A DNA stretch of 64,000 bases from Kordiimonadales bacterium IMCC3096 (lineage in GTDB: Bacteria > Pseudomonadota > Alphaproteobacteria > Minwuiales > Minwuiaceae): the NCBI GenBank assembly GCA_016865035.1, contig CP018227.1, forward strand, positions 1 to 64,000, given 5' to 3'. The position numbers were made by a program, and so were the translations under genes. Each line of letters opens with the position of its first letter. Within the stretch, counting starts at the first letter, position 1. The notes below the pieces were generated by a model. That model worked only from the letters and a program-made list of their open reading frames with translations, made no database searches and was not told the origin of the DNA. Positions 1 to 35,636 of this stretch are shown one piece after another.

Positions 1-1640
1 TGACCGAAGCTCTCATCGACAGCCGGATGGCTGCACCGGATATCTGTGTCACCCGCCCCCTGATCGACCGCAACGCGTCACAGACGCCGGACAAGGTCTA
101 TGCGGTCTTTCCGGACGGAACCGAATGGACGTACCGGGAACTGCGGGAGCAGGTTCGGCGCACCGCTGCGGGGCTGGAAAAACTGGGGGTGAAGCAGGGC
201 GACCATGTCGTCAGCTGGCTGCCCAACGGGCAGGACGCGCTGCGTGTCTGGTTCGCGATCAATTACCTCGGCGCCGTCTATGTCCCGATCAACACATCCT
301 ACAAGGGCGGCATCCTGGCCCATGTGGTGGCAAACGCCGACGCCAGCCTGATCATCGCCCATGCCGGACTGGCACCGAGGCTGGTGGATATCGACAGGGC
401 CAGGCTGGATACCGTCGTGATCATCGGCGGCAAGCTGGACACATGCGCGGACCTGACGGTGCATGATGCGGATGTTCTGGCGCCAGCCGATGCCGAACCC
501 TCCCCTCCCCCACGGGAAATCATGCCCTGGGACACGCAGTCCATCATCTATACCTCCGGCACGACCGGACCATCGAAAGGCGTTCTCTCGTCCTACCTGC
601 ATGCCTACATGACAGGTGCGGCCTACTCGAACCTGCCGGGGGAAGATGGCACTGCCCTGATCTCGGCTGATGACCGCTATCTGCTCAGCCTGCCGATGTT
701 TCATGTCGGCGGCACCCTGCCCGCCCACATCATGCTGGCCATGGGTGGCTCCATCTCCATCGTGGATGCTTTCAATACGGCCACGTTCTGGAAGACGATC
801 AAGGATACCCAGGTCACCTTCGCCATCCTGCTGGGCGTGATGGCACAGTTCCTCGCCAAGCAGGATCCAGTACCGGAGGAAAAGGACAACCCGCTGCGCA
901 CGGTCATGCTGGTGCCCTTCGACTTCGACCCGACCGAGTTCCGGGCGCGTTTCGGGGTCCAGACCATGACCCTGTTCAACATGACCGAGATCTCCTGTCC
1001 GCTGATCTCCCCCGTCAACCCGACACTGCTGCACAGTGCGGGAACACCACGCGACGGGGTGGAGTGTCGCGTCGTCGACGAGAACGACTGCGAGGTGCCC
1101 GTCGGTACGGTCGGGGAACTGATCATCCGTGCCGACTGCCCCTGGACGATGAACCATGGCTACTACAAGAACGCGGAAGCCACGGCGAAGGCCTGGCGCA
1201 ATGGCTGGTTCCATACCGGTGACGGCTTCCGCAAGGACGCGGATGGCAACTTCTACTTCGTCGACCGCATGAAGGATGCGATCCGTCGCCGTGGCGAGAA
1301 CATCTCGTCCTTCGAGGTGGAGACCGAGGTGCTGGCGCATCCGGCAATCCAGGAATGCGCGGCCATTGCCGTGAAGAGTGACGTCAGTGAAGACGAAGTG
1401 ATGATCGTGGTTGCGCCTGCGGCCGGCAAGACCATCGATCCCACCGAATTGATCGAGTTCCTGATCCCGCGGATGGCCCATTTCATGGTGCCCCGCTATG
1501 TTCGGATCGTTGACCGCTTGCCCCGGACCCCCACGGAGAAGGTGCAGAAGGTCAATCTGCGCGACGAAGGTGTCACCGGCGACACCTGGGATCGCGACAA
1601 GGCTGGCATTCGTGTCCGGCGGGAGAAACTGAGCGGCTGA
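1..1640 (+). CDS. AMP-forming acyl-CoA ligase (CaiC-like)
   Basis: This ANL-superfamily enzyme would activate a carboxylic acid with ATP and CoA in the cytoplasm. Counting from the ATG at base 27, the nucleotide-binding motif YTSGTTGPSKG lies near residue 175. The hinge region (HTGDGF, YFVDR, RRRGENISSFEVE) lies near residues 395-430, and the C-terminal lysine motif reads PTEKVQK. The style is that of CaiC-like ATP-dependent acyl-CoA ligases, but the substrate cannot be read from sequence. The ATG at 27 has no ribosome site. The frame stays open to base 1, where tg would complete a start codon with the missing base, adding nine residues, so the 5' end probably lies one base outside the window. 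It is a paralogue of the ligase at 4961-6598. Confidence 0.9.
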   Translation, partial: TEALIDSRMAAPDICVTRPLIDRNASQTPDKVYAVFPDGTEWTYRELREQVRRTAAGLEKLGVKQGDHVVSWLPNGQDALRVWFAINYLGAVYVPINTSYKGGILAHVVANADASLIIAHAGLAPRLVDIDRARLDTVVIIGGKLDTCADLTVHDADVLAPADAEPSPPPREIMPWDTQSIIYTSGTTGPSKGVLSSYLHAYMTGAAYSNLPGEDGTALISADDRYLLSLPMFHVGGTLPAHIMLAMGGSISIVDAFNTATFWKTIKDTQVTFAILLGVMAQFLAKQDPVPEEKDNPLRTVMLVPFDFDPTEFRARFGVQTMTLFNMTEISCPLISPVNPTLLHSAGTPRDGVECRVVDENDCEVPVGTVGELIIRADCPWTMNHGYYKNAEATAKAWRNGWFHTGDGFRKDADGNFYFVDRMKDAIRRRGENISSFEVETEVLAHPAIQECAAIAVKSDVSEDEVMIVVAPAAGKTIDPTELIEFLIPRMAHFMVPRYVRIVDRLPRTPTEKVQKVNLRDEGVTGDTWDRDKAGIRVRREKLSG

Positions 1641-1666
1641 CATCAACAAGGGAGATCGGATCGCGG

Positions 1667-2326
1667 GTGGAACAGGATCTGGATCAGATCGAGATCGTCG
1701 GCGAAGCCAATGGCGACAGCCGTCGAACCCAGGCGGAACGCAGGGCCGAGTCCGACAGCCGCATGCTTCGCGCAGCGACACAATTGATCGCGAAGCATGG
1801 TTCCGCAGGGGTCAGTCTTGCGAAGATCGGGGTGGCTGCCGGGTACAGCCGCGGCCTGCCCACGGAGCGCTACGGTTCGAAATCCAATCTGCTCGAAGCC
1901 GTGATCGATGCCTCGGATGCCTGGTTTCAGCGGCGGCTGGCGGCACGGCTGGAGGGCCATTCCGGACTGGAGTCCCTGCGTGAGCGCGTGCGCGCGCACC
2001 TTGAGACGGTTCGGGAATCCAGGGTACCGACTGTCGCCCTCTTCCTGCTGATCATCGATTCTGCGGCGACCTTGCCCGAACTGCGCCCCAGGGTGCAGCG
2101 GCTGAACGAACGCTGGCGCCAGGGGATCCTGCGCGACCTCGAAACGGCCAGAGCGGCCGGTGCCTTGCCGGCCGAGCTGGACACGGAGAGGCACGCGACG
2201 CTGATCCTCTCCGCGATGCATGGTGTGGCTGTCCAGGCGCTGATCGGTCTTGGGGACGATGACATCATGACCGCGGCCGAAAGCATCATCAGGGAATTGA
2301 TTGACGAAATCCCGCGACCGGGCTGA
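1667..2326 (+). CDS. TetR-family transcriptional regulator
   Basis: This 219-residue protein has an N-terminal TetR helix-turn-helix at about residues 27-75 (MLRAATQLIAKHGSAGVSL, AGYSRGLPTERYGSK) and a variable ligand-binding C-terminal half. It starts at a GTG preceded by aagggaga, 26 bases after the ligase stop, so it is probably co-transcribed with the ligase. It is clearly paralogous to the next gene at 2421-3071, which has the same AGYSRGLP recognition-helix region and a VDASxxWFxRR segment. The neighbourhood suggests control of the acyl-CoA ligase and carboxylase genes, possibly with an acyl-CoA ligand. That role is an inference. Confidence 0.85.
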   Translation: MEQDLDQIEIVGEANGDSRRTQAERRAESDSRMLRAATQLIAKHGSAGVSLAKIGVAAGYSRGLPTERYGSKSNLLEAVIDASDAWFQRRLAARLEGHSGLESLRERVRAHLETVRESRVPTVALFLLIIDSAATLPELRPRVQRLNERWRQGILRDLETARAAGALPAELDTERHATLILSAMHGVAVQALIGLGDDDIMTAAESIIRELIDEIPRPG

Positions 2327-2361
2327 TGCAGACGGACATGGCTTCACCGCGCGCAACACAC

Positions 2362-2390
2362 TTGTGGCGGGAACGGGTCCAGGCTATTAA
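2362..2390 (+). promoter_or_regulatory. Candidate promoter of the second TetR gene
   Basis: A ttgtgg hexamer (2362-2367) and a tattaa hexamer (2385-2390) are separated by 17 bases, a sigma70-like arrangement in the 94-base gap between the two TetR genes. The match is only partial (3/6 and 4/6 to consensus), so this is a weak prediction. Its position just ahead of the near-palindrome at 2391-2406 supports it. Confidence 0.3.
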
Positions 2391-2406
2391 TTTGCTGGTC
2401 AACAAA
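2391..2406 (+). promoter_or_regulatory. Candidate TetR operator (imperfect palindrome)
   Basis: The sequence tttgctggtcaacaaa equals its own reverse complement at 12 of 16 positions. It sits immediately after the candidate -10 box and 14 bases before the ATG at 2421. This is where an autorepressing TetR protein would bind. No binding-site consensus for these regulators is known to me. Confidence 0.3.
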
Positions 2407-2420
2407 CAAGTTTATGAGGC

Positions 2421-3071
2421 ATGGCTGATTCCTCACCCTCGCGCCGTACCCAGTCCCAACGCCGCAACGATTCCGATCGCGAGATGCTGGCGGCGGCGAT
2501 CCGGCTGATCGGTCGGCAGGGGTCAGTCGCCACCAGCCTGGCCCAGATCGGCCTGGAAGCCGGCTACAGCCGTGGCCTGCCCGCAGCGCGGTTCGGAACA
2601 AAACTGGCCTTGCTGGAAGAAGTCGTCGATGCCTCGGAGCGCTGGTTCGAGCGCCGCGTCGCCCGGCAGATCGGCGACAGGAAGGGGCTGGACGCCCTGT
2701 TCATCCGCATGAACACGCACCTGCAGGGCGCGCGCGATGATGCCTCCGGCACCATCACCGTCTATCAGCTCTACATGGAATCGATCGGCGCGATGCCGGA
2801 GCTGCGCCCACGCATGCGGGCCTATGGCGAGGCCTATCGACAGGGGTTCCGCCGCCACCTGGCAGAAGCCGAGGAGCGGGGCGAACTCCGGCCGGGCACG
2901 GATCTCGACCAGACGGCAACGACCATCCTGGGTGCGGTCCGGGGCGTGATCGTCCAGTCGCTCGTCGATGACGGCACGACCAATCTCGAAACCGCTGGAA
3001 AGCACCTGATCAGCCTTTTCAGGGAGGCGCTTTCTACAGGCATACCGACGGCGATCACGCCGTCTGAGTGA
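2421..3071 (+). CDS. TetR-family transcriptional regulator (tandem paralogue)
   Basis: This 216-residue TetR regulator has its helix-turn-helix at about residues 20-65 (MLAAAIRLIGRQGSVATSL, AGYSRGLPAARFGTK). It resembles its upstream neighbour along its whole length, which indicates a tandem duplication. It lies 28 bases ahead of the biotinyl-peptide gene and codes in the same direction. An imperfect palindrome and a weak promoter precede it, so it may be autoregulated separately from the ligase gene. Two similar regulators side by side suggest response to related ligands or a shared operator. The ligand is unknown. Confidence 0.85.
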   Translation: MADSSPSRRTQSQRRNDSDREMLAAAIRLIGRQGSVATSLAQIGLEAGYSRGLPAARFGTKLALLEEVVDASERWFERRVARQIGDRKGLDALFIRMNTHLQGARDDASGTITVYQLYMESIGAMPELRPRMRAYGEAYRQGFRRHLAEAEERGELRPGTDLDQTATTILGAVRGVIVQSLVDDGTTNLETAGKHLISLFREALSTGIPTAITPSE

Positions 3072-3099
3072 ACGCAAGAAACTTGAGGGGAGAAGCAGC

Positions 3100-3312
3100 A
3101 TGGACGTCAAATCAGAGATCGCCGGGAAGGTCTGGAAGATCGTCGCCGCCGTGGGGGACACGGTGGAGGAAGAGGACGAGATCATGATCCTGGAATCGAT
3201 GAAGATGGAAATCCCGGTTGGCGCGCCCGGCAATGGGCGCATCACCGAGATCCTTGTCGAAGAGGCGGAAAGCGTTCAGGAGGGTCAGGTCGTCGCCCGC
3301 ATCGGAACCTGA
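3100..3312 (+). CDS. Free-standing biotinyl (BCCP-like) carrier peptide
   Basis: This 70-residue single-domain protein consists of the biotinyl/lipoyl fold only. The biotin attachment motif ESMKMEIP is central, with K35 the predicted biotinylated lysine. It would carry carboxybiotin between a biotin carboxylase and the carboxyltransferase encoded six bases downstream. A strong ribosome site (aggggagaag) precedes the ATG. Conventional BCCPs are longer or are fused to the carboxylase, but short independent carriers also occur. A close paralogue lies at 33342-33563, also beside a carboxyltransferase gene. No biotin carboxylase is encoded in the window. Confidence 0.9.
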   Translation: MDVKSEIAGKVWKIVAAVGDTVEEEDEIMILESMKMEIPVGAPGNGRITEILVEEAESVQEGQVVARIGT

Positions 3313-3318
3313 CCGGAC

Positions 3319-4866
3319 ATGAGCACTCAATCCCCCGACGGGCAGGAAATCGCGGACGCCCGTGCCGCGCTTGAAGATGGTGCCCGGCCCCGGGCGGTCG
3401 AACGCCAGATGAAACGTGCCGAGATGACGGCGCGGCAGCGGATCGCCATGCTTTGCGATCCCGACAGCTTCCGGGAGATCGGCGGCCTGGTGCGCGACGA
3501 TGACGGCACGCGGGAGGAGCGTCCCGCCGACGGCGTCGTCATGGGCTGCGCCCTTGTCGGCAACCGGCCCGCCGTCGTGCTGGCGCAGGATTTCACGGTG
3601 CACGGCGGATCCAGCGGCAAGCTCGGCAGTGCCAAGATCAGGCGCGCGATCCAGCAGGCAATGCGGGACGGCGCACCACTTGTCATGCTGCTGGACGGGG
3701 GTGGCCACCGCATCCAGGACGGCCAGGACTCCCGCCACTTCGCCAATGGCTCGCCCACATTCCACGACTTTGCGCGACTGTCGGGATGGGTGCCTGTGGT
3801 CTCAGTGATGATGGGGGCCGGGTTTGCCGGACCGACCAACTATGCCGGCATGTCCGATTTCGTTGTCATGGTGCGGGGTCAGTCCTGCATGGGGCTTGCC
3901 GGACCGGCACTGGTGAAGGCCGGCACGGGGGAGGAGATCGACATCCAGACACTGGGTGGTGCCGGCGCACAGGTCGATACCCACGGCCTCGCCCATCTGG
4001 GCGTGGACAGCGAGGCGGAGGCGCTCGGCGCCGTGCGCAGCTACCTCGGCCTGCTGCCCTCCAATGCCCGCGCGCCCCTGCCCTGTACCGCGCCTCCGCC
4101 CGATGACGACCGGCAGGCGCTGATGGCAAAGCTTGTCCCCGCCGACACGCGCAAGGCCTACGATGTGCGCAAGGTCATTGCCCGGCTGGTCGATCCCGAC
4201 AGCCTGCTGGAGATCAAGCCGACCTTTGCGAAGAACGCGGTCACGGCCCTGGCCCGGCTGGATGGCCGACCGGTCGGCATCATTGCAAATCAGCCGATGC
4301 AGCTCGGCGGCATGCTGACATCCCCCGCCTGCGAGAAGATCGCGCACTTCGTGGCGGTCTGTGACGCGTTCGGCGTCCCGCTCGTCTATCTGATCGACGT
4401 GCCCGGGTTCTCCATCGGGTCATCGGCGGAGAAGAGCCTGCTGGGACGACGCAGCGCCCGCATGGTCTACGAGCTTGGCCATGCCACGGTTCCCAGGGTC
4501 TCCATTGTCCTGCGCAAGGGATACGGCCTCGGCTATATCGCCATGTGCGGTGGCCGCAGCTTCGATGCCGACGCCAGCCTGGCCTGGCCGACCTCCGAGA
4601 TCTGCGCCATGTCGCTGGAGGGGGCGGCCAACGTCGCCTATCGCAAGGACATCGAGCGTGCGCCGGACCCGGACGAACGTCGCAAGGAGATCGTGGCGGA
4701 GATGCGTGCGCGTGTCAGCGCCCTGCGTGGTGCCGAAGGGCTGGGTGTCGATGACATCATCGAGCCCGAGGATACCCGCCGCCGCCTGATCGAGATCCTG
4801 GAACGGGCACCGGCCCGGCGTGAGAACGCGATGCCACCGAAATACCGATCCATCTCGCCGATCTGA
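3319..4866 (+). CDS. Acyl-CoA carboxylase carboxyltransferase subunit (PccB-like)
   Basis: This 515-residue carboxyltransferase of the acetyl/propionyl-CoA carboxylase beta type has two crotonase-fold halves. The N-half contains the stretch with ADGVVMG and FTVHGGSSGKLGS, and the C-half contains YDVRKVIARLVD, NQPMQLGGML and the glycine-rich YGLGYIAMCGG. It would transfer CO2 from carboxybiotin to an acyl-CoA. The length is normal for the family. It follows the biotinyl-peptide gene by six bases, so the two are surely co-expressed. The N-half is more divergent than in the copy at 31750-33279. The acyl-CoA substrate is unknown. A decarboxylase acting in reverse is an alternative. Confidence 0.85.
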   Translation: MSTQSPDGQEIADARAALEDGARPRAVERQMKRAEMTARQRIAMLCDPDSFREIGGLVRDDDGTREERPADGVVMGCALVGNRPAVVLAQDFTVHGGSSGKLGSAKIRRAIQQAMRDGAPLVMLLDGGGHRIQDGQDSRHFANGSPTFHDFARLSGWVPVVSVMMGAGFAGPTNYAGMSDFVVMVRGQSCMGLAGPALVKAGTGEEIDIQTLGGAGAQVDTHGLAHLGVDSEAEALGAVRSYLGLLPSNARAPLPCTAPPPDDDRQALMAKLVPADTRKAYDVRKVIARLVDPDSLLEIKPTFAKNAVTALARLDGRPVGIIANQPMQLGGMLTSPACEKIAHFVAVCDAFGVPLVYLIDVPGFSIGSSAEKSLLGRRSARMVYELGHATVPRVSIVLRKGYGLGYIAMCGGRSFDADASLAWPTSEICAMSLEGAANVAYRKDIERAPDPDERRKEIVAEMRARVSALRGAEGLGVDDIIEPEDTRRRLIEILERAPARRENAMPPKYRSISPI

Positions 4867-4960
4867 AGCCCGGGGAGGATGCCGACGGGCATTGGGCGGA
4901 CGATCAGCGAGATGGGTACCCCGCGAGTTGCGGGAAGCATGGATGGGGAGGGACTGACAG

Positions 4961-6598
4961 ATGAAAGGCGACGAGACCGTCAGCGCGGCGTTTGCGGATC
5001 CGCGCATTCCGCCGCGTGACCAATGCGTCCTGCGACATCTGCTGGACCGGCTGGCGACGGAGACGCCGGACAGTCCCTTCGCATGGTTCGACGGGGGCAC
5101 GCTCTGGTCCTTTGCGCGGACACGGGCCGAGGCTGCGCGAACAGGCAGCGGGCTGCAGCATCTGGGCGTGGCGCGTGGCGAGCGGGTGCTGGTATGGCTG
5201 CCCAACAGCCCGCTGATGCTGCGCTGCTGGTTCGGCATCAACTACATCGGCGCCACCTATGTGCCGGTGAACACCGCCTATCGCGGCAGCCTGCTGGAGC
5301 ATGTGATCCGCAATGCCGATGCCCGGCTGATGATCGTGCATGCGGACCTGCTGGACCGCCTGTCCGACATCGACCTGTCGCGTCTGGAGCGGCTGGTGGT
5401 GGTTGGCGGCGCGGCGGAATTTCCGCGTCTGGCCTTGGAGGGGATCGATGCACTGGGGGCCATGGGTGACGAGCCGTCGCCCCTGGAACGCCCCATCGAT
5501 CCGTGGGAGCTGCAGTCGATCATCTACACCTCTGGAACCACCGGTCCGTCGAAGGGTGTGCTGTCGTCGTACCTGCACCTCTACACCATGTCGGTCAGCG
5601 CGCGGGACTGGCTGGGTGCCGATGACCGCCGCCTGGTCAACCTGCCCCTGTTTCATGCGGGCGGCACCAGCGGAACCTACGGCATGCTGGCGAAGGGGGC
5701 GTCCATCGCGCTGGTGGATTCCTTCAAGACCGACACCTTCTGGGACACGATCCGCCGTTCCGGTTCGACCTGCCTCACCCTGCTGGGTGCGATGACACCG
5801 TTCCTGATGAAGGCCCCGCCAAGTCCGCAGGATCGCGATCACCCCCTGCGCAACGCCTTCATGGTCCCGCTGACGGAGGATGCGGCAGCGTTCAGCGAAC
5901 GCTTCGGCGTCGACATCTACACAACCTTCAACATGACGGAGATCAGTTGCCAGCTCATGTCGGAGCGGAATCCGACCAAGGCCGGTTCCTGTGGCAAGGT
6001 CCGCGCCGGCGCATCCGTCCGCCTGGTCGATGACAATGACTGCGAGGTCGCAACGGGCGAGATCGGCGAGATGATCGTGCGCGATGAACGCCCCTGGGGC
6101 CTGAACCACGGCTACAACCGGAACCCGGAGGCAACGGCGAAGGCCTGGCGCAATGGCTGGTTCCATACCGGCGACCTGTTCCGCCGCGACGCCGACGGCA
6201 CCTTCTATTTCGTTGACCGCGCCAAGGATGCGATCCGCCGCCGGGGCGAGAACATTTCCTCCTTCGAGGTGGAGAACGAGGTCAATGCCCACCCGGATGT
6301 CCGCGAGAGCGCGGCGGTGGGCGTTGCCAGCGAACTGGGGGAGGACGAACTGCTGGTCGTCATTGCCCCCGTGCCGGGCCGCACCGTGGACCCGCGCGAC
6401 CTGCTCGAGTTCCTGCGCCCGCGCATGGCGCATTTCATGATCCCGCGTTTCATCCGTGTCCTGCAGGACCTGCCGAAGACCCCGACCCAGAAGGTACAGA
6501 AACACCTGCTGCGCGACGAAGGCGTCACCGCCGACACCTGGGACCGCGACAGGGCCGGCGTGAAGATCAGCCGCGACAGGCTCGGCACGCTCGCCTGA
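4961..6598 (+). CDS. AMP-forming acyl-CoA ligase (CaiC-like), second copy
   Basis: This 545-residue ANL-family ligase is paralogous to the one at the left edge of the window. Shared motifs are YTSGTTGPSKGVLSSYLH near residue 190, FNMTEISC, the HTGDLFRRD hinge region, RRRGENISSFEVENEV and the C-terminal PTQKVQK lysine. The ATG follows a strong ggggaggg ribosome site. It lies 94 bases after the first carboxyltransferase gene and 22 bases before the second, so acid activation is twice paired with carboxylation. Substrate specificity probably differs between the two ligases, but it cannot be assigned. Confidence 0.9.
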   Translation: MKGDETVSAAFADPRIPPRDQCVLRHLLDRLATETPDSPFAWFDGGTLWSFARTRAEAARTGSGLQHLGVARGERVLVWLPNSPLMLRCWFGINYIGATYVPVNTAYRGSLLEHVIRNADARLMIVHADLLDRLSDIDLSRLERLVVVGGAAEFPRLALEGIDALGAMGDEPSPLERPIDPWELQSIIYTSGTTGPSKGVLSSYLHLYTMSVSARDWLGADDRRLVNLPLFHAGGTSGTYGMLAKGASIALVDSFKTDTFWDTIRRSGSTCLTLLGAMTPFLMKAPPSPQDRDHPLRNAFMVPLTEDAAAFSERFGVDIYTTFNMTEISCQLMSERNPTKAGSCGKVRAGASVRLVDDNDCEVATGEIGEMIVRDERPWGLNHGYNRNPEATAKAWRNGWFHTGDLFRRDADGTFYFVDRAKDAIRRRGENISSFEVENEVNAHPDVRESAAVGVASELGEDELLVVIAPVPGRTVDPRDLLEFLRPRMAHFMIPRFIRVLQDLPKTPTQKVQKHLLRDEGVTADTWDRDRAGVKISRDRLGTLA

Positions 6599-6620
6599 CA
6601 GCATCAGACAGAGAACGGAA

Positions 6621-8162
6621 ATGACCATGGACAAACCGGAACAGACGTCACCCGACACCCAGGTGCGGGCGGGGCTGCAGGCAGTGCTCGATGCCCATGC
6701 CGCAACGACCGACGCGGCGCGCAAGGCAGCGGTCGACAAGCAGCACGCGCGGGGCCGCTGCACCGCCCGGGAAGGCGTTGCGCAGCTTCTGGATGAAGGC
6801 AGCTTCGTCGAGTACGGCGGCCTGGCCAAACCGGCCACCAAGGGCATGCAGGGTGCCGCCGACGGGCTTGTCATGGGCACCGGCAAGGTCGATGGCCGCC
6901 CCGTCGTCATCGTCGCCTATGACTATACCGTCTATGCCGGGACGCAGAGCGCGGTGAACCACGGCAAGATCAGCCGCATGTTCCAGTATGCGGAGCGGCA
7001 GCGGCTGCCGGTGCTGTGCTGGCTGGATGGCGGCGGTGCCCGACCGCACGACATGTTCGTGCAGTCGATGAGCATGTCGACGACCTTCGTCACCTTCTCC
7101 CGCCTCTCCGGCCTCGCCCCGACTGTGGGCATCGTGCCGGGCCGGGCCTTTGCCGGACACGCCAACCTTGCGGGTCTCAGCGACTGCGCCATCGCCACGA
7201 AGAACGCATCCATGGGCATGGCGGGACCGCCGCTGGTGGAGGCCGCGCTGGGCATGAAGCTGACGCCGGAGGAGATCGGTCCGGCGGAGGTGCACATGAA
7301 GGCCGGTTCCATCGACCTGATGGCGGAAGATGATGCCGATGCCTGCCGTCTGGCGCGCCGCTACCTCTCCTACTTCACTGGTCCCGCAGAACCCGCCCCT
7401 GCCCCCGATCCGCAGAAGCTGCGCGATCTGGTGCCGGAAAGCCCGCGCCGCGCCTACGATGTACGCAAGGTGATCGAGGGGCTGGCCGATACGGACAGCG
7501 TGCTGGAGCTGAAACCTGCCTGGGGCCGGGCCATGGTGACCGCGCTGGCCCGGATCGACGGCCGTACCGTGGGTGTCGTTGCCAACCAGCCGATGTTTCT
7601 TGGCGGTGCCATGGACAGCCCGGCATGTGCCAAGTCGGCCCGCTTCGTCGAACTCTGCGACGCCTATGACATTCCCATCCTGCTGCTGTGCGACACGCCG
7701 GGCCTGATGGTCGGGCCGGAGATCGAGAAGACCGCACTGGTTCGCCACAGCGCGCGCCTGCTGTCCGCGCTGGCCAACGCGACCGTGCCGCTGATGACCG
7801 TGGTGCTGCGCAAGGCCTATGGTCTGGGCTACTACATCATGGGCTCCCGCCCGCTGCACCCGGCCATCCTGCTGGCCTGGCCGACCGCGGAGTTCGGGGG
7901 CATGGGTCTGGAGGGTGCGGCAAGCATCATCTTCAAGGCAGAACTCGAAGCCATCGCCGATCCGGCAGAACGCGCGGAGGCCCATCGTGCCTACACGGAT
8001 GAGCTGAAGGCCTACAATACCAGCCTGCGGGTAGGGGAACGCTTCGGCTTCGACGATGTGATCGACCCCGTCGACACGCGCCAGATCCTTTCCGCCACCA
8101 TGGACACCTTCCCCAGCCCGCCACAGCGCACCACCAAGAAGCTGACCATCGCCCCGATCTGA
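6621..8162 (+). CDS. Acyl-CoA carboxylase carboxyltransferase subunit, second copy
   Basis: This 513-residue PccB-type carboxyltransferase is similar in length and order of motifs to the gene at 3319-4866: AADGLVMGTGKVDG, then YDVRKVIEGLADTDS, NQPMFLGGAMDSPAC and YGLGYYIMGSRP. It follows the second ligase by 22 bases. No biotinyl peptide is encoded beside it, so it may share the carrier at 3100-3312. It could form a mixed complex with the first carboxyltransferase, as alpha/beta-type subunits do, or serve a separate substrate. The sequence does not decide between these. Confidence 0.85.
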   Translation: MTMDKPEQTSPDTQVRAGLQAVLDAHAATTDAARKAAVDKQHARGRCTAREGVAQLLDEGSFVEYGGLAKPATKGMQGAADGLVMGTGKVDGRPVVIVAYDYTVYAGTQSAVNHGKISRMFQYAERQRLPVLCWLDGGGARPHDMFVQSMSMSTTFVTFSRLSGLAPTVGIVPGRAFAGHANLAGLSDCAIATKNASMGMAGPPLVEAALGMKLTPEEIGPAEVHMKAGSIDLMAEDDADACRLARRYLSYFTGPAEPAPAPDPQKLRDLVPESPRRAYDVRKVIEGLADTDSVLELKPAWGRAMVTALARIDGRTVGVVANQPMFLGGAMDSPACAKSARFVELCDAYDIPILLLCDTPGLMVGPEIEKTALVRHSARLLSALANATVPLMTVVLRKAYGLGYYIMGSRPLHPAILLAWPTAEFGGMGLEGAASIIFKAELEAIADPAERAEAHRAYTDELKAYNTSLRVGERFGFDDVIDPVDTRQILSATMDTFPSPPQRTTKKLTIAPI

Positions 8163-8258
8163 GCTGCTGTCCTGTTCCGTACCGTGATGTATCCGGAGCC
8201 GCCTTGCGGTATGTAGGGGAACAGCCCGGCTGATGCGAGAAGAGGAACTGACAGGGAA

Positions 8259-8975
8259 ATGGTGGCCAGCAATGGGAACAGACGGGCGGAGTCGAAGGAG
8301 CGTGAGGGCGGGATCGATACCCGTCTGGCGCTGATTCTGGCGGCGGAGCGGATATTCTCCGAGGAGGGCATCTCCAACACTTCTCTGCGCCGCATCAATC
8401 AGGCTGCGGGGCAGCGCAACGAGAGCGCGATCCACTATTACTTCGGATCGCGCGAAGGCCTTGTTGCGGCGATCCTGGAACTGCGCACCACCCCGATCAA
8501 TGCCGCCCGCGTCAGGCTGGTGCGGGAGGCGCGGGCGCGGCGCGGCACCCTGCCCCTGGAATCCCGCGACATAGCGGAAGCCATGACACGACCGCTGACC
8601 GACCATCTGCTCCGGAACCTGAACGACACCTGGTATCTGCGGTTCCAGAGCATGCTCTGGCTCGACCGGCCGATCTGGAAGCAGTTCGAGAAGGACGAGC
8701 GGACCGAAGGGCTGAAACTGATCCTCGATGCCCTGCTGGAGGCCAAGCCGTTCCTGCCCGAACGCCTTGTCAGGCATCGCTACAGCCTGGCCCTGCAGAT
8801 GACAGCGAATGCCCTGGCCCGGGTCGAGCGCGCAGCCTCCGAGTCCGCCGAGGGCTGGGACGCACGGCGCGCGGAGCTGGAGTTCCTCAGCCTGGATGAC
8901 GCCATCGTCGCGATCCTGGACTCGCAACCGTCGCCAGCGGTCGTGGCCGCACTGCGGGACTCCGGCGGTCTCTGA
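8259..8975 (+). CDS. TetR-family transcriptional regulator
   Basis: This 238-residue regulator has a TetR helix-turn-helix near residues 20-70 (LILAAERIFSEEGISNTSL, AIHYYFGSREGL). It is not closely related to the two TetR proteins at 1667-3071. Its recognition region has the common HYYFGSREGL form. The C-terminal domain is long, with an aromatic cluster around WYLRFQSMLWLDRP, as is common in ligand-binding TetR proteins. It ends the left carboxylase region, and its targets are likely the adjacent operon or the TAXI gene downstream. Both options are inferences from position. Confidence 0.85.
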   Translation: MVASNGNRRAESKEREGGIDTRLALILAAERIFSEEGISNTSLRRINQAAGQRNESAIHYYFGSREGLVAAILELRTTPINAARVRLVREARARRGTLPLESRDIAEAMTRPLTDHLLRNLNDTWYLRFQSMLWLDRPIWKQFEKDERTEGLKLILDALLEAKPFLPERLVRHRYSLALQMTANALARVERAASESAEGWDARRAELEFLSLDDAIVAILDSQPSPAVVAALRDSGGL

Positions 8976-9277: not shown

Positions 9278-10342
9278 ATGGGAGCGTTCAATCACCTGCT
9301 GTCAGCGAAAGGCATGCTGACGGCTGCGACCCTTGGACTGGCACTGGGCTCGGCCCAGGCGACCCTGTTGCCGGGCACGGCCCAGGCGCAGGACAAGAAA
9401 TTCCTGACCATGGCCAGCAACCCGCCGGGCACGACGGTGGGTCAGTTCATGATCGCTTTCGCCCAGGTGGTGCAGAAGAACCTGCCGATCGAGATCCAGG
9501 TCTCCACCGGCAAGCCGGCAACCAAGTCGGCCATCGACGCTGCGCTGCAGAAGGTGGACCTCTATACCGGTGCGCCCACCATCAACTGGTACATGCAGAA
9601 CAAGACCGCGATGTTCGCCAAGGTCGACAACGCGCCGGAGATGAATGCCAACCTGCGCGGCATGATCAACTATCCGCTGGGCCCGTACCAGATCATCACC
9701 TTCGCCGATTCCGGCATCGAGACGCTGGCCGACATCAAGGGCCGCAAGGTCTTTCTCGGCCCCCCCGCCGGTGCCGCGACCAAGGTCATGACCGACGTCG
9801 TGGAGGCCGTGACGGGGCTGAAGCCGGACGAGGGCTACGAGGCCATGCGCTATGACTGGTCCTCCGCCGAGGTTGCCTTCCTGGATGGCCAGATGGACGT
9901 CTACATGGTGCCCACCAGCATTCCCAGCGCCCAGATCCAGCAGTTTGCCTTCGTCCGTGACATCCGCATTCTCGGCATACCCAAGAACGCGTTTGATCAC
10001 GAGCTGATCCAGGCGGCGCTGAAGTATCCGGGCCGGACCATCTGGCAGATTCCGCCGGGTTCCTACGAGAACCAGGTCAATACGGAAGCAGTCGACACCA
10101 TCGGTTCCTGGGTCGGCATCCAGACCCAGAAGTGGCTGGACGAGAAGACCGTCTACGACATGGTGAAGGCGTTCTTCGAGCATCTGGACGACATCCATGC
10201 CACCGCACCATGGATGAAGGCGATCACGCTGCAGACGGCGCTGAACGAGATGAACGTGCCGCTGCACATCGGCGCCTACCGTTACTACAAGGAACAGGGC
10301 GTCGAGATTCCGGCGGCGCTGGTTCCGCCTGAGGCCATGTGA
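9278..10342 (+). CDS. TAXI-family TRAP transporter solute-binding protein
   Basis: This 354-residue periplasmic binding protein begins with a signal peptide of about 37 residues (hydrophobic stretch LTAATLGLALGSAQATLL, cleavage near AQAQ). The mature part has the TAXI/NMT1-like pattern, including a TxSAIDAALQKVDLYTGAP segment and LADIKGRKVFLGPPAGAA. It would deliver a small organic anion to a DctM/DctQ-type membrane complex. No TRAP membrane subunit gene is encoded in the window, so this is an orphan binding protein. The neighbouring ligase and carboxylase genes make an organic acid ligand plausible, but that is only an inference. Confidence 0.85.
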   Translation: MGAFNHLLSAKGMLTAATLGLALGSAQATLLPGTAQAQDKKFLTMASNPPGTTVGQFMIAFAQVVQKNLPIEIQVSTGKPATKSAIDAALQKVDLYTGAPTINWYMQNKTAMFAKVDNAPEMNANLRGMINYPLGPYQIITFADSGIETLADIKGRKVFLGPPAGAATKVMTDVVEAVTGLKPDEGYEAMRYDWSSAEVAFLDGQMDVYMVPTSIPSAQIQQFAFVRDIRILGIPKNAFDHELIQAALKYPGRTIWQIPPGSYENQVNTEAVDTIGSWVGIQTQKWLDEKTVYDMVKAFFEHLDDIHATAPWMKAITLQTALNEMNVPLHIGAYRYYKEQGVEIPAALVPPEAM

Positions 10343-10490
10343 TCACCGACGCCTCCTGAACGACCGGGGTCTGTCGCCGCCGCGGCAGCCCCCACCCCTC
10401 CCAAAACTCAGGTGCGGCGGGCCAGTTTCTGGTCCCGCACGGGCAACCGGCTTGTCTGCCGCACCCCATCTTCCGGCGGAGCACAGACCC

Positions 10491-11714
10491 ATGAGCATCG
10501 AGACGGAGGTCGTCAAACCCTCCGAATTCTTCTCCACCATCGCGCCCGGCATTCACCTGATTGGCGCCATGGGCAACAGCGTCGCCGTCGAGACAACCAA
10601 CGGCGTGGTACAGGTGGATACCGGCGGCGGTCGCCGCATGCCGGGCCGCATGATCGCGAAGCTGCGCAGCGTCACCGATCTGCCGGTCCATGCCATCCTC
10701 TACAGCCACGGTCACCTGGGCTACAACTTCGGCATCCCCGCCTATCAGGCCCACGCGGAGGAGCGCGGCGACCCGCCCCCGCGCCTGATCGCCCACGCCA
10801 ATCTGGTGCTCCGCTATGACCGCTACATCGAGACTGCGGGCCTGCAGGAACATCTGAACCGGATGCAGTTCCCCGATGGCGGCCTAGGCAACAACATCTC
10901 CGCCGACCAGTTCTGCTATCCCACCGAGACCTTCACCGACAGCCTGACCATCGACGGCGGCAACCGACAGATCGAGGTGTTTCACGCCCCGTCGGAGACC
11001 GATGACGCCATCGGCTTCTGGATCTCGGAGGAGCGCGTGCTCTATGGCGGCTCGGCCGTCATCCAGTCCTGCCCCAATGTCGGCACGCCGCTGCGCACCA
11101 TCCGAGACGCCATCCGCTGGGCCGAAACGCTGGAGGCCATGATCGCCCGCGAACCGGACCTGCTGATCCCCGAATGGGGCCAGCCGCTGGAGGGCAAGGA
11201 ACAGATTGCCGACGTCCTGGGCGTCGGCGCGCGGTCGCTCCGCTACCTGCGCACGGCGGTCGTGGAGCGGATGAACGCCGGCATGACCGACCACGAGATC
11301 ATCCACGACATGGAATACCCGCCGGAGATCTTCGAACACCCGGCCATGAAACCGATCTACGGCTGCCCCGAATATATCGTGCGCGACATCTACCGGGCAG
11401 AGAACGGCTGGTGGACCAGCCGCAACCCGACCGACCTGCATCCCGGCAAACCCGACGACGTCGCCGCCGCCCTGCTCGCCGCCATCTCCGACCGTGAAAC
11501 CGTCCTGAAGACCGCCCGGAGCCTGCGCGACAGCGGCCAGCCCCAACTGGCCCTGCACGTCCTTGATCTGCTGGCGCAGGGTCCGGTGGCGGACGCCGAC
11601 GTGCGCGCCGCACGGGAGATGAAGGCCGACCTGCTGGAGAGCTTCGGCCAGGAGCATCCGTCCGTGGTCAGCCGAAACATCTACCGGTCGGGGGCGAAGC
11701 GGTTGCGGGGGTAA
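10491..11714 (+). CDS. Alkylsulfatase-like MBL-fold protein with altered metal site
   Basis: This 407-residue protein resembles class III alkyl sulfatases. It has an N-terminal metallo-beta-lactamase domain (about residues 20-250) followed by the alkylsulfatase dimerisation region (ENGWWTSRNPTDLHP near residue 305) and a C-terminal helical part. The metal motif, normally HxHxDH, reads HGHLGY (H73, H75, G77, Y78), so the aspartate and last histidine are replaced. The late histidine region reads PEWG. Such a protein may bind one metal, use a different chemistry or be non-hydrolytic. The ATG at 10491 has a ggcggag ribosome site; a TTG 39 bases upstream is less likely. Confidence 0.8.
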   Translation: MSIETEVVKPSEFFSTIAPGIHLIGAMGNSVAVETTNGVVQVDTGGGRRMPGRMIAKLRSVTDLPVHAILYSHGHLGYNFGIPAYQAHAEERGDPPPRLIAHANLVLRYDRYIETAGLQEHLNRMQFPDGGLGNNISADQFCYPTETFTDSLTIDGGNRQIEVFHAPSETDDAIGFWISEERVLYGGSAVIQSCPNVGTPLRTIRDAIRWAETLEAMIAREPDLLIPEWGQPLEGKEQIADVLGVGARSLRYLRTAVVERMNAGMTDHEIIHDMEYPPEIFEHPAMKPIYGCPEYIVRDIYRAENGWWTSRNPTDLHPGKPDDVAAALLAAISDRETVLKTARSLRDSGQPQLALHVLDLLAQGPVADADVRAAREMKADLLESFGQEHPSVVSRNIYRSGAKRLRG

Positions 11715-31354: not shown

Positions 31355-31749
31355 TCCAGTGCCCTGACATCGGTTCCGTGAAATGACATGGAGCTCAAGC
31401 GCCCCGCAATTCTCAGACTTCGCTCGCAACACCTGGCCCGTTCTTCCGGGCTCTCTAGGCTGGACCCCATCCGCTTCCCAGGTTCCTTCAGGAAAAGCGC
31501 TACGCGGGTCCATCCACTTGAAATTCGAGGTGCCATTGCGGCACGCCTGCGGCGTCGGGATTATCGACGATCAGGTCATCCAACAGGCAATTATCATGGC
31601 AAATATTGGCCTAGCAACCGCCGAAGAGTGGATCAAGTGCCGGACCGATGCAACCGGCAATTATTCGTTCCACCAATTCGCCCCTGCGGCTTGCACACGA
31701 TCTGTCCGGACAGCAGACTCTGCCCGGATTCCATGAGGGGGGAGAGCAA
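31355..31749. other. 395-base divergent intergenic region
   Basis: This region separates the receiver-GGDQF-EAL gene from the third carboxyltransferase gene and should hold both promoters. No gene is convincing here. A 14-base direct repeat with one mismatch, caac(a/c)ggcaattat, occurs at 31581-31594 and 31651-31664, exactly 70 bases apart. A purine-rich ribosome site at about 31736-31746 precedes the TTG at 31750. Confidence 0.5.
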
Positions 31750-33279
31750 TTGGGCTGGAAAGATCACATTCAAGAGCATGAGCGGCGCATCGCCAAGGCC
31801 AGGGCAATGGGGTCGCCAAAGCGACTAGCCGAACGTGCCGAGGCGGGAATTCTGAATGCGCGCCAGCGGATCGAGGCGCTGCTGGATCCCGACAGTTTCC
31901 ACGAGACCGGCCTGTTCGCGGTTTCCCGCCGGCCCGGCATGGAAGACAAGAGCCCGGCGGATGGCGTCGTGGACGGATACGGTCGGATTGACGGGCGGGA
32001 GGTCGTCGTCTGCGCCCAGGATTTCACGACGCTGGGCTCATCGAGTGCGATCAACAACAGCAACAAGTCGATGAAGATGTGGCGGACCGCCGAGAAGAAC
32101 GGTGTTCCGTTTGTCTATCTCTCGGAATGCTCCGGTGCCCGCATTCCCGACATCATGGGGGCGGTCGGCATGGGCAGTGTCGGCGAAGGCTTCATCTTCA
32201 GCCGTCGCAGGCTGGTTCCCTGGGCCGACGCGGTACTGGGCATGTCGTTCGGCGGCGGAACCTGGGTGGCTTCCGTTTCCGACTTCGTGGTGATGCGCAA
32301 GGGCGCGGTCATGGCAGTGACCAGTCCGCGGGTGAACACCGTTGCCATTTCCGAACAGATCGACCCGGAGGAAATGGGCGGCTGGCGTGTGCAGACCGAG
32401 ATCACGGGCAAGGCCGACCTGGCCGTCGACAGTGACGAAGAGGCCCTGCAGGCGATCCGTGACTATCTTTCGTACCTCCCCTCCAACTGCGAGGAGCTGC
32501 CGCCACTGGCAGATGTTCCCGCCGGCTCCGGCGATGACGCCAACCGTATCCTGGACCTGGTTCCGGAGGAGCGCCGACGCACCTACGATGTCCGCAAGGT
32601 CATCAACCTGATCGTCGATCGCGACAGCATGTTCCCGATCAAGGAACGCTTCGGACGTTCGCTGGTCACCTGCTTCGCGCGCATCCAGGGCCGCACGGTC
32701 GGCATCATCGCCAACAATCCGATGTTCAAGGGCGGGGCGCTGGACGTCGATTCCTGCGACAAGGCCACCAGCTTCATCGCGAGCTGTGACAGCTTCAACG
32801 TGCCCATCATCTTCCTGGCCGATGTCCCGGGATTCCTGATCGGTGTCGAAGGCGAGCACAAGAAGGTGCCCGGAAAGATCATGAACTTCATGCAGGCCCT
32901 GGAACTTGCCACGGTCCCGGTCCTGTCGGTGGTCATGCGCAAGTCCTACGGGCAGGCCTACATCAACATGGGCGGCGGGCGGTCGAGCGAGATGGCGTGC
33001 TGGTTCACCGCGGACATCAGCTTTGTCGACCCGGCTGTCGCAGCCTCCATCGTGACCGGCCTCGACCCGAAGGCGGAGCCGGAACGCTTCGCCGCCGCCG
33101 TGGACGAATATTCGCTTGGCTGCTCCCCCTACGACCTGGCGGGGCAGTATCTGGCCCATGACGTCATAGACCCGCGCGACACCCGACAATGGCTCGCCCG
33201 GATGCTGGAGGCACATCAGCCCCGACGCACCGGCGGATTAGGCGCACATCATATGCAGAGCTGGCCGTTCACTTATTGA
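31750..33279 (+). CDS. Acyl-CoA carboxylase carboxyltransferase subunit, third copy
   Basis: This is a 509-residue PccB/AccD5-type carboxyltransferase. It keeps the canonical N-half motifs (SPADGVVDGYGRIDGREV, FTTLGSSSAINNSNK, SECSGARIPD) and C-half motifs (YDVRKVINLIVD, NNPMFKGGALDVDSCDK, DVPGFLIGVEGE, YGQAYINMGGG). It is the most conventional of the three copies. I chose the TTG at 31750 because of the gggggagag site just upstream; no nearer ATG preserves the domain. A biotinyl-peptide gene follows by 62 bases. Substrate could be a branched or unusual acyl-CoA given the acyl-CoA dehydrogenase downstream. Confidence 0.88.
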   Translation: MGWKDHIQEHERRIAKARAMGSPKRLAERAEAGILNARQRIEALLDPDSFHETGLFAVSRRPGMEDKSPADGVVDGYGRIDGREVVVCAQDFTTLGSSSAINNSNKSMKMWRTAEKNGVPFVYLSECSGARIPDIMGAVGMGSVGEGFIFSRRRLVPWADAVLGMSFGGGTWVASVSDFVVMRKGAVMAVTSPRVNTVAISEQIDPEEMGGWRVQTEITGKADLAVDSDEEALQAIRDYLSYLPSNCEELPPLADVPAGSGDDANRILDLVPEERRRTYDVRKVINLIVDRDSMFPIKERFGRSLVTCFARIQGRTVGIIANNPMFKGGALDVDSCDKATSFIASCDSFNVPIIFLADVPGFLIGVEGEHKKVPGKIMNFMQALELATVPVLSVVMRKSYGQAYINMGGGRSSEMACWFTADISFVDPAVAASIVTGLDPKAEPERFAAAVDEYSLGCSPYDLAGQYLAHDVIDPRDTRQWLARMLEAHQPRRTGGLGAHHMQSWPFTY

Positions 33280-33341
33280 CGAAGCCGCATTAGGCTCCGC
33301 GCCATCCATTCGGACACGTGCAATTTGGGGAGACAGGGCAC

Positions 33342-33563
33342 ATGGCGGAAATCGAGATCAAGTCGGAGATCGCAGGCAAGGTCTGGCTGATCGAGGCCGA
33401 GGTCGGTCAGGCGGTCGAGGAAGAGGATGCCGTGATCATCCTGGAATCCATGAAGATGGAGATTCCGGTAGTGGCACCTGTCTCCGGCAAGATTACGGAG
33501 ATACTGGTGGAGAAGGACGAGGCCGTGGCGGAAGGCCAGACGGTCGCCCGCATGGAAGGCTGA
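33342..33563 (+). CDS. Free-standing biotinyl carrier peptide, second copy
   Basis: This 73-residue biotinyl domain has the attachment motif ESMKMEIPV (predicted biotin on the first lysine). It is strongly similar to the 70-residue peptide at 3100-3312 (shared KSEIAGKVW and ITEILVE segments). A ggggagac ribosome site precedes the ATG at 33342. It lies between a carboxyltransferase gene and an alpha/beta hydrolase gene. The pair of paralogues implies duplication of a carrier-carboxyltransferase module, with gene order reversed between the two loci. Confidence 0.9.
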   Translation: MAEIEIKSEIAGKVWLIEAEVGQAVEEEDAVIILESMKMEIPVVAPVSGKITEILVEKDEAVAEGQTVARMEG

Positions 33564-33573
33564 TAAGCTTCGG

Positions 33574-34377
33574 ATGATCAGGCCGTTTCGGCGGGAAACC
33601 CGCATCGGCATCATTGATGGCTTCGAGGTCGGACCGGAGGACGCGCCGCAACTGCTGATGCTGCACGCCTCCGGCACCGGCGCGGCGAGCCTGATCCGGC
33701 TGGCGGAGATTGCGGCCGCACGGGGCTGGTGCGCCGTCCTGCCCAACCTGGACGGCTATGGTGCCACTTCTGTGACCGGGCCGGATGCCATGGCGCGCCA
33801 CATGGTCGTGGCAAACCACTTCCTGGAACAGGCGGTGTCGCCCCTGCCCGTCTTCGGACACTCCATGGGCGGGTTCGTGACCTTGCGGCTGGCTGCCGAA
33901 GGCGTGCCCATGCGGCGGATCACGGTCTTCGAACCGGTGGCAATCGGTGTCCTGCGCGAGCATGCGGAAGACGCAGAGGTACTGTCCCAGGATACCCGCG
34001 CGGTTTCCCGCATCGCCCCCCTGATGGCCGAAGGGCGTGCTGAGGAGGCGGTACGCGACTTCATATCCCTGTGGAACGGCGACAGATGGGATGACCTGCC
34101 GGAGAAGGCACGACAGAGCATTGTCGCCATGGCACCGCAGATCAACGCGGATACGGCGAATGTCAGCTTCGATGCGCACTTCGCGTCTCACTACGCGGCA
34201 ATCAGGGTACCTGTGACCCTTGTCGGCAGCGAGAAGGGTCCGCCGCCCGCCGCACGTATTCTGGATCGGCTGGTGGATGCACTGCCGCAGGCCCGGCGCG
34301 TAACGATCGCCTGCGCAGGACACATGGGTCCATTGCAGATGCCGGAGCGCTTTGGAGACGTACTGCCACTGGATTGA
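33574..34377 (+). CDS. Alpha/beta-fold hydrolase
   Basis: This 267-residue alpha/beta hydrolase has the nucleophile elbow GHSMGG near residue 92 and a late histidine in CAGHMGPLQMPE. The oxyanion segment reads LMLHASGTGAAS, and there is no obvious signal peptide, so it is cytoplasmic. It begins ten bases after the biotinyl-peptide gene and precedes the acyl-CoA dehydrogenase by 50 bases, indicating one operon. It could be a thioesterase or esterase in the same pathway, but the substrate cannot be named. Confidence 0.82.
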   Translation: MIRPFRRETRIGIIDGFEVGPEDAPQLLMLHASGTGAASLIRLAEIAAARGWCAVLPNLDGYGATSVTGPDAMARHMVVANHFLEQAVSPLPVFGHSMGGFVTLRLAAEGVPMRRITVFEPVAIGVLREHAEDAEVLSQDTRAVSRIAPLMAEGRAEEAVRDFISLWNGDRWDDLPEKARQSIVAMAPQINADTANVSFDAHFASHYAAIRVPVTLVGSEKGPPPAARILDRLVDALPQARRVTIACAGHMGPLQMPERFGDVLPLD

Positions 34378-34427
34378 ATCCCGCGCAGCGCCTACCATTC
34401 CCGGACTGCTCTGGGGAGGACAGCCAA

Positions 34428-35636
34428 ATGGATCTCAGCCTGACCGAAGAAGATGTGGCCTTTCGCGACGAGGTGCGCGGCTGGATCGCGGAGAACCTGA
34501 CTGACGAGATGCGCGACGGCGCACGTCTGACAACGGGGCCCTTCAGCGATTTCGAGATCGGCATGAAGTGGTTCCGGACCCTTGCCTCCCGGGGCTGGTC
34601 AGCAGCGACCTGGCCGCCGGAGTTCGGCGGTCCGGGCTGGTCGCCGCTGCAGCTCTACATCTTCAATGCCGAGTGCGCCGCCGCCGGAACGCCGGTCCCG
34701 CTGGTCATGGGTGTCCAGATGGTCGGGCCGGTGCTGATGCACTTCGGCACGCCGAAGCAGCAGGAATATTACCTGCCCCGCATCCTGTCGGGAGAGGACG
34801 TCTGGTGCCAGGGTTACTCGGAACCCGGTTCCGGGTCGGATCTGGCATCGCTCAAGACCCGTGCAGTGCGCGACGGTGATGACTACATCATCAATGGTTC
34901 GAAGATCTGGACCACCTTCGCCCAGCATGCCAATCGCATGTTCTGTCTCGTACGGACCAGCACCGAAGGCAAGGCGCAGGAGGGTATTTCCTTCATCCTG
35001 ATCGACGACTTCAAGGCGCCGGGAATCACGGTCGATCCGATCATCACCATGGCCGGTGACCACGAGGTCAATCAGGTCTTCTTCGAGGATGTGCGGGTTC
35101 CGGCCAGCAATCTTGTCGGGCGGGAGAATGATGGCTGGACGGTCGCGAAGTACCTGCTGGAGTTCGAGCGTGGCGGCAACAGCTACAGTCCCGGTCTGCA
35201 CGCCTCGCTGGCCCACCTGAAGGCCGTCGCCCAGGCGGAGCGTGACGGCGATGGATCACGGCTGATCGACGACATGACCTTCCGCACGCGGATCGCCGAG
35301 GCCGAATGCGATACGCTGGCGCTGGAGCATGTGGAAAAGCAGGCGCTCTGTGCGCTGGCGGAGGGACGGACACCCGGTGCCGCATCCTCCATGATGAAGG
35401 TCCGGGGCTCCGAAATCCTGCAGCGCGCGGCGGAACTGACGACAGAAGCCGTCGCCTATCACGCCTGGCCGGACCAGAAGGCTGCCCGCACCGTGGGGAC
35501 AAATATCAGCGCCGTGGGGCCGGAACATGCGCTCACCGCCCTGCCCCGTCATCTGAACCACAGGGCCGCGACCATCTATGCCGGTTCCAACGAGATCCAG
35601 CGCAATATCATCGCCAAACTGGTTCTGGGCCTTTAG
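34428..35636 (+). CDS. Acyl-CoA dehydrogenase
   Basis: This 402-residue FAD-dependent acyl-CoA dehydrogenase oxidises an acyl-CoA to its 2-enoyl-CoA. Visible family segments are YSEPGSGSDLASLKTRA (FAD and substrate loop), KIWTTFAQHANRMFCLVRT, FFEDVRVPASNLVG and the C-terminal YAGSNEIQRNIIAKLVLGL. The ATG at 34428 follows a strong ggggagga site. As the last gene of the carboxyltransferase, carrier and hydrolase operon, it suggests catabolism of a branched or substituted acid in that operon. Confidence 0.9.
   Translation: MDLSLTEEDVAFRDEVRGWIAENLTDEMRDGARLTTGPFSDFEIGMKWFRTLASRGWSAATWPPEFGGPGWSPLQLYIFNAECAAAGTPVPLVMGVQMVGPVLMHFGTPKQQEYYLPRILSGEDVWCQGYSEPGSGSDLASLKTRAVRDGDDYIINGSKIWTTFAQHANRMFCLVRTSTEGKAQEGISFILIDDFKAPGITVDPIITMAGDHEVNQVFFEDVRVPASNLVGRENDGWTVAKYLLEFERGGNSYSPGLHASLAHLKAVAQAERDGDGSRLIDDMTFRTRIAEAECDTLALEHVEKQALCALAEGRTPGAASSMMKVRGSEILQRAAELTTEAVAYHAWPDQKAARTVGTNISAVGPEHALTALPRHLNHRAATIYAGSNEIQRNIIAKLVLGL

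Follow-up and report, generated by a model that had tools for sequence, protein, structure and literature searches.

A conserved gene cluster of a Minwuia-related alphaproteobacterium with two dissimilar carboxyltransferases and one free biotinyl carrier

The first 64,000 bases (the window) of the single-contig, 4.29-Mb genome of Kordiimonadales bacterium IMCC3096 (CP018227.1), an organism close to Minwuia, begin with eight genes packed into 9 kb, all on the + strand and all with counterparts in known protein families. They encode, in this order, an acyl-CoA ligase of 546 amino acids (LIG1; 1–1640; Pfam AMP-binding at 3–1640, E 1e-61), two TetR-family regulators (TR1; 1667–2326; TetR_N E 3e-7; and TR2; 2421–3071; TetR_N E 4e-7), a free biotinyl carrier of 70 amino acids with the motif ESMKMEI (BCCP1; 3100–3312; Biotin_lipoyl E 2e-16), a carboxyltransferase (CT) of 515 amino acids (CT1; 3319–4866; Carboxyl_trans E 4e-115), a second acyl-CoA ligase of 545 amino acids (LIG2; 4961–6598; AMP-binding E 2e-59), a second, free-standing CT of 513 amino acids which belongs to the LCC/YCC clade (CT2; 6621–8162; Carboxyl_trans E 2e-108), and a third TetR-family regulator (TR3; 8259–8975; TetR_N E 1e-9). 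LCC and YCC are used here as short names for the single-chain acyl-CoA carboxylases that we take the solved entries 4rcn and 5fif to be. From LIG1 to TR3, the intergenic spacing ranges between 6 and 96 bases. A 22-bp imperfect inverted repeat (ATTTGCTGGTCAACAAACAAGT; 2390–2411, + strand), regarded as an operator candidate, is located 9 bp before TR2. The Pfam matches of all named parts are strong and not due to chance; thus, the ligase/CT pairs, the single biotinyl carrier, and the three TetR genes described in an initial annotation are indeed present. No paper on this cluster was found among the literature matches listed.

The boundaries given in that annotation (1–8975) held at neither end. 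The ATG of LIG1 is split by the contig ends, its first base being the last base of the 4.29-Mb contig, so that LIG1 begins one base before the window and the gene run crosses the chromosome start, beyond which lie a PhyH-family gene and the genes of a TRAP transporter (DctP-DctQ-DctM). Downstream of TR3 follow, also on the + strand, a TAXI-type (NMT1_3) periplasmic binding protein (9278–10342; NMT1_3 E 2e-41) and a metallo-beta-lactamase with an alkylsulfatase dimerisation domain (MBL; 10452–11714; Alkyl_sulf_dimr E 2e-32, Lactamase_B 2e-11). In the two loci reflecting the closeness to Minwuia, L012 (CT1 96% identical) and L013 (94%; counted as one genome with G197), the gene order from DctP to MBL is unbroken and the same as here; TR2 and the carrier of L013 were located by separate comparisons. 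More distant is L014 (CT1 90% identical), where the end of LIG1, TR1, the carrier, CT1, CT2, TR3, and the TAXI gene follow each other. TR3 and the order TAXI-MBL are thus kept in all three loci, the contig of L014 ending inside the MBL gene. No LIG2 lies between CT1 and CT2 of L014, and a search of the contig for TR1/TR2-type regulators found TR1 only; as this contig begins inside LIG1, a further ligase elsewhere in that genome is possible. Genes in the fetched loci were called with a simple GC-position script, which missed or mis-started some of them, and gene names resting only on such calls are our reading.

Because ligase and CT genes occur twice, the initial annotation proposed a duplicated activation–carboxylation pathway. 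The gene content does fit activation and biotin-dependent carboxyl transfer, but the duplication was not borne out. CT1 and CT2 are only 41% identical. In a CT tree of 81 rows (quick method without bootstrap, SH-aLRT support; rows at least 97% identical dropped, which reduced 85 to 81; L019–L056 left out except L020, L025, L029, and L037), CT1 is found in a clade of 20 rows (support 99) and CT2 in a separate clade of 32 rows together with the LCC/YCC fused single-chain enzymes (support 100). The MCC-like CT of the same genome falls into another clade of 11 rows (support 100), with CT1 and CT2 outside; the tree contained no geranyl-CoA carboxylase reference row. Within their clades, both CT1 and CT2 group with the relatives from L014, G186, and G459 (sub-clade support 100 and 96, respectively), the CT1 sub-clade also holding L015. 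Among solved relatives, CT2 is nearest to 5fif and 4rcn, and CT1 to 7w5u and 1on3. On the CT2 chain, only Carboxyl_trans and an overlapping ACCA match were detected, and neither a biotin carboxylase (BC) nor a carrier domain.

The active-site stretches of the CTs match the LCC type of Rhodococcus opacus. A broken or altered active site was rejected, as the stretches of CT1 are odd compared with PccB but resemble this LCC type. The best NCBIfam model for the CTs is methylmalonyl-CoA decarboxylase alpha (TIGR01117), which would be in line with a biotin-dependent decarboxylation system similar to MmdA/GcdA. However, the scores of CT1 (413.5 bits), CT2 (328.1 bits), and CT3, a third CT encoded farther along the window (338.8 bits), all stay far below the cut-off of 998.8, and a scan limited to the cluster genes showed no membrane decarboxylase subunit, which makes such a system highly improbable.

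The ligases and regulators also differ in their relationships. LIG1 and LIG2 are 55% identical, yet they are not sisters in the ligase tree: LIG2 groups with a ligase of L265 (G197:C22; 76% identical, support 100/99), and the nearest relative of LIG1, weakly supported (85/83), is from G186. Their best NCBIfam model is PRK06155, with 480.3 (LIG1) and 501.9 bits (LIG2), below the cut-off of 722. TR1 and TR2 are 44.5% identical; TR1 is 45% identical to the TetR of the G459 cluster and TR2 55.6% to that of L265, where this TR2-like gene, the LIG2 relative, an operator candidate, and a TRAP transporter occur together. As L014 lacks both LIG2 and TR2, and L265 carries relatives of both side by side, these two genes seem to have been either added later or lost together, and two unlike CTs on one carrier appear to form the core of the cluster. 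A tandem duplication of a ligase-CT module was, therefore, rejected: CT1 and CT2 belong to different clades, the ligases are not sisters, and the contig of L014 retains both CTs beside a single ligase and a single TetR gene of the TR1/TR2 type. Bearing on the same data is the notion of two parallel ligase-CT modules, each with an acid of its own, which share the carrier by happenstance. It would account for a ligase gene near each CT, and ligase-CT1 and ligase-CT2/LCC pairs do occur separately in other genomes (L017, G194, G186, and G162). As the parts are not sisters, no module was duplicated, though; both CTs are accompanied by one ligase on the contig of L014, and the closest relatives of CT1 and CT2 are found in common genomes. 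Two parallel modules are considered doubtful.

The gap before DctP (L008:12842–12863) contains an imperfect inverted repeat similar to the one before TR2. The TR2 site is identical in L012 and L013, and related sites are present in L014, G459, and L265. A palindromic 22-bp matrix built from the two own sites alone was used to scan 2.6 Mb of fetched DNA, including overlapping loci. Beyond the identical TR2 sites of L012 and L013, scores of 26.4 (G459), 26.1 (before DctP in L012 and L013), and 25.8 (L014) were obtained; lower ones came from L037 (21.7) and L052 (21.6), unrelated loci counted as chance, and then from L265 (20.5). Of 500 mononucleotide shuffles of the same contigs, none attained the G459 score and one the L265 score. 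The candidate site of G459 precedes a TetR gene and faces the gene set on the opposite strand. A TR1/TR2-type TetR gene was present at each locus with a matrix match, except for the chance pair L037 and L052, and TR1 and TR2 are presumed to bind the 22-bp sites. TR3 gave no match to TR1 or TR2 at 1e-5 and is unrelated to them. The TetR genes are, thus, three in number, as initially annotated, but of two kinds, only the TR1/TR2 kind being found with the conserved operator candidate.

The distribution of CT1 and CT2 was assessed in two overlapping samples, one of the class (289 genomes) and one of the phylum (398 genomes). The searches scored three to five candidates per genome, so absences are soft. 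In the class sample, CT1 was matched (E 1e-130) in 8 and CT2 in 29 genomes; relatives at least 67% identical were found for both CTs in the own genome, G197, and G186, and for neither CT elsewhere. In the phylum sample (E 1e-130 for CT1 and 1e-150 for CT2), both CTs were matched only in the own genome and in G459, which belongs to another family (61% for CT1, 64% for CT2). This co-occurrence is suggestive, but should not be read as a rate. In G459, a single 26-kb contig carries ligase, receptor, CT1, and ABC-transporter genes on one strand (the transporter names being partly our reading), and TetR, a carrier of ∼73 amino acids with ESMKM, ligase, and CT2 on the opposite strand; a BC search of this contig at E 1e-110 had no match. 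On a plasmid of R. opacus PD630, ∼12 kb hold a ligase, an LCC-type fused CT, CT1, a BC-carrier protein, and another ligase. The ligase family had 28 matches in 16 of the 289 class genomes, for 8 of which a CT or LCC gene belongs to the same run, in one case (G033) judged from coordinates alone.

Farther along the window, the third CT and its carrier stand in CT-then-carrier order, just as initially annotated: CT3 (31648–33279, + strand; Carboxyl_trans E 3e-99), a member of a third clade with 38% identity to CT1 and 35% to CT2, and the free biotinyl carrier BCCP2 (33318–33563, + strand; Biotin_lipoyl E 5e-15), 69% identical to BCCP1 and, judged by sequence, sharing its biotinyl motif ESMKM. By our reading of the sequences, an alpha/beta hydrolase-like gene and an acyl-CoA-dehydrogenase-like gene complete this set (31648–35636). 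Genome G082, of the same genus, keeps relatives of all four genes in order, that of CT3 being 89% identical. On a beta-proteobacterial contig (L015:2867–7034), a CT1-type gene (64%) and a CT3-type gene (48%) converge, next to a TctC receptor.

The initial annotation had also pointed out that no BC is visible. This was confirmed, as no BC match lies within the 64-kb window. The genome as a whole contains 7 BC matches, 15 CT matches (13 full-length), and 13 biotin/lipoyl matches, 9 of which we counted as biotinyl; L075 and L078, with lipoyl motifs, and L077 and L087, with neither motif, were set aside, and AccB at 322 kb, which the motif pattern missed, was included owing to its place beside AccC. 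Four BCs carry their own carrier (1489, 3555, 1216, and 780 kb), and two have one adjacent (321 and 1609 kb). Only the BC at 3019 kb has no fused or adjacent carrier. This, and an MBL paralogue (32%) nearby, would favor it as the partner of BCCP1. However, its relative in G186 (54%) shares an operon with a carrier (43%) and a CT (69%) whose counterparts in the own genome lie at 2575–2577 kb. A dedicated partnership with BCCP1 was, therefore, not upheld, and by this analogy the 3019-kb BC is probably not the partner. In the own genome, the parts of that operon (L224:5547–9168) appear to be divided between two places, the BC at 3019 kb and carrier and CT at 2575–2577 kb (L010 and L094). Each of the seven BCs can thus be assigned to another carrier, one by analogy to G186 only, so that BCCP1 and BCCP2, both in the window, are the carriers left over. 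For these, a BC may be borrowed from elsewhere, or the system may do without. BCs were also not recognised in the gene lists surrounding the CTs at 117, 166, 1045, 2180, 2559, and 3777 kb; the CT at 784 kb lies near a pyruvate-carboxylase-like gene. Carriers of ∼70 amino acids similar to BCCP1 are present in 52 of the 289 class genomes and are not generally linked to CTs, because 22 of the 30 loci read (∼1.5 kb on each side, including L164–L193) contained neither a CT nor a BC match.

If the system needs no BC, one CT could pass the carboxyl group of a donor dicarboxylic acyl-CoA to BCCP1, from which the other CT would carboxylate an acceptor acyl-CoA, with the ligases activating both acids. 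Two CTs of different subfamilies, one carrier, and the lack of a BC match both in the Minwuia cluster and on the G459 contig would fit such a transcarboxylase, and so would the surplus of 9 biotinyl carriers over 7 BCs, with BCCP1 and BCCP2 as the unmatched two. Moreover, a passage of PMC3199775 describes BC as confined to carboxylases and the carrier as something they have in common with decarboxylases and transcarboxylases. However, the relative gene set of R. opacus has two BC domains and L018 has two BC genes, no 5S-type subunit was seen in the scan of the cluster genes, the role of BC could be filled by a dissociable one such as AccC, and both CTs of L014 are accompanied by one ligase. 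A transcarboxylase is, on balance, unlikely. Similarly low is our confidence in its most specific form, in which CT1, CT2, and BCCP1 would constitute a BC-free acyl-CoA:acyl-CoA transcarboxylase with the 70-amino acid carrier as the shuttle and both esters provided by the ligases of the operon; if true, no ATP would be spent on carboxyl transfer. A borrowed BC is favored because the relatives in R. opacus and L018 do have BCs.

As to the substrate, the aspartate of the GGAYDVM stretch of PCC, a residue which steers substrate choice, is replaced by I or Y in the CTs. Relatives of alpha-methylacyl-CoA racemase accompany CT1 in L017, L151, and L152 and a ligase-LCC pair in L267, and are part of the R. 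opacus set; counting the latter (∼7 kb from CT1), they occur with 4 of the 20 rows of the CT1 clade, the flank lengths read differing between rows and the racemases of L151 and L152 being assigned by 52% identity to that of L017. AtuA is found with CT1 in 2 of the 20 rows (L157 and L158); the two AtuA genes of the own genome, at 342 and 481 kb, are far from the cluster. These neighbors hint at a branched, alpha-substituted, or terpenoid acid. No ligand is indicated by the solved relatives of DctP, nor by those of MBL, the closest of which, sec-alkylsulfatases, are weak matches, and the solved relatives of LIG2 are spread over many substrates. An HpaB-type protein beside CT1 gave no common reading, that of G186 being nearest to 4-hydroxyphenylacetate hydroxylase and that of R. 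opacus nearest to vinylacetyl-CoA isomerase. In L157 (1827–14728; G194), AtuA, an MCC-side CT, an enoyl-CoA hydratase, a BC-carrier, a ligase, CT1, a second hydratase, a small carrier, and a thiolase-like gene form one run. In L267 (7332–15457), a ligase of the LIG1/LIG2 family directly precedes a single-chain LCC-type carboxylase, with the racemase relative nearby.

Taken together, we favor, at somewhat better than even probability, an inducible operon for uptake, activation, and carboxylation of an acid, in which two CTs work on one carrier and the BC is supplied in trans. The TRAP transporter would import an organic acid, at a guess a branched or alpha-substituted one, and an AMP-forming ligase would convert it to its acyl-CoA. 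CT1 and CT2, being of different subfamilies, would carboxylate CoA esters using the common carrier BCCP1, charged by a BC from elsewhere in the genome. TR1/TR2 would repress the operon at the 22-bp operators before the transporter and before TR2 until a ligand, probably either the acid itself or the CoA ester derived from it, releases them. Like mycobacterial AccD4/AccD5, for which this has been proposed, CT1 and CT2 may assemble into a mixed oligomer. From the domains, the gene order (kept in L012, L013, and mostly in L014), the genomes shared by CT1 and CT2, the gene set of G459, and the operator candidate, we infer catalysis, carrier sharing, and regulation along these lines; the active-site likeness to the LCC type, the R. 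opacus gene set, and the racemase and AtuA neighbors in relatives were counted in favor as well.

Several observations weigh against this operon. No BC is dedicated to BCCP1, and it is not obvious how a bare biotinyl domain would dock stably to one. Relatives of CT2 at 60–63% identity are present in G093, G185, and G279 without any CT1 match (and also in G187 and G281, where the CT1 relatives are 54–58% identical), G080, G195, and G194 have CT1 relatives at 55–58% but no CT2 relative above 50%, and G082, of the same genus, had no CT1 or CT2 match at threshold. The co-occurrence of the CTs, therefore, hinges on the identity cut chosen, which slightly lowered our confidence. In G186, CT1 and CT2 (the latter with a ligase) sit on different contigs, and no strong operator site was found in the loci read. 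Linkage to CTs is not a fixed trait of the ligase family, as 20 of its 28 matches in the class sample had no CT or LCC gene seen alongside. Finally, neither a racemase nor AtuA was seen in the cluster itself, the substrate hint coming from relatives.

With 13 full-length CTs versus 7 BCs, the genome has surplus CTs, of which the cluster is a compact, regulated, and recurrent case. It unites both CTs, a carrier, ligases, a transporter, and an operator candidate, and would allow testing a borrowed BC against carboxyl exchange with few purified proteins. Known systems share only some of its features. CT2 shares its clade with the CT domains of the fused LCC/YCC proteins of ∼1000 amino acids, the active-site stretches are as in the R. 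opacus enzyme, and ligases of the LIG1/LIG2 family adjoin fused LCC genes in G162, G260, G033, and R. opacus. However, LCC/YCC enzymes unite BC, carrier, and CT on one chain, whereas CT2 is free-standing, with a separate carrier of 70 amino acids and no BC. Propionibacterial transcarboxylase, whose 12S subunit (1on3) resembles CT1 (E 2e-107), likewise has a small free carrier and no local BC. It also has a 5S subunit, for which the scan, confined to the cluster genes, showed no counterpart; a second 12S-like CT is present instead. AtuA beside CT1 in L157 and L158 is reminiscent of the geranyl-CoA carboxylase/Atu pathway, but CT1 and CT2 are outside the clade of the own MCC-like CT. In the mycobacterial long-chain acyl-CoA carboxylase AccA3-AccD4-AccD5-AccE5, one biotinylated subunit, AccA3, in which the carrier is fused to BC, works with two different CT subunits. 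The product of this carboxylase feeds mycolic-acid synthesis, whereas the present genes look catabolic, with a free carrier and no BC nearby. Passages of PMC4064979 and PMC4347857 describe that accD4 clusters with fadD32, that two CTs are served by one biotinylated subunit, and that a mixed AccD4/AccD5 complex, though suggested, had not been isolated. The solved entry 9t97, which lists two CT chains, D4a and D5a, is perhaps this AccD4/AccD5 complex. By analogy, the cluster is most like a catabolic, split counterpart of the mycobacterial two-CT long-chain complex.

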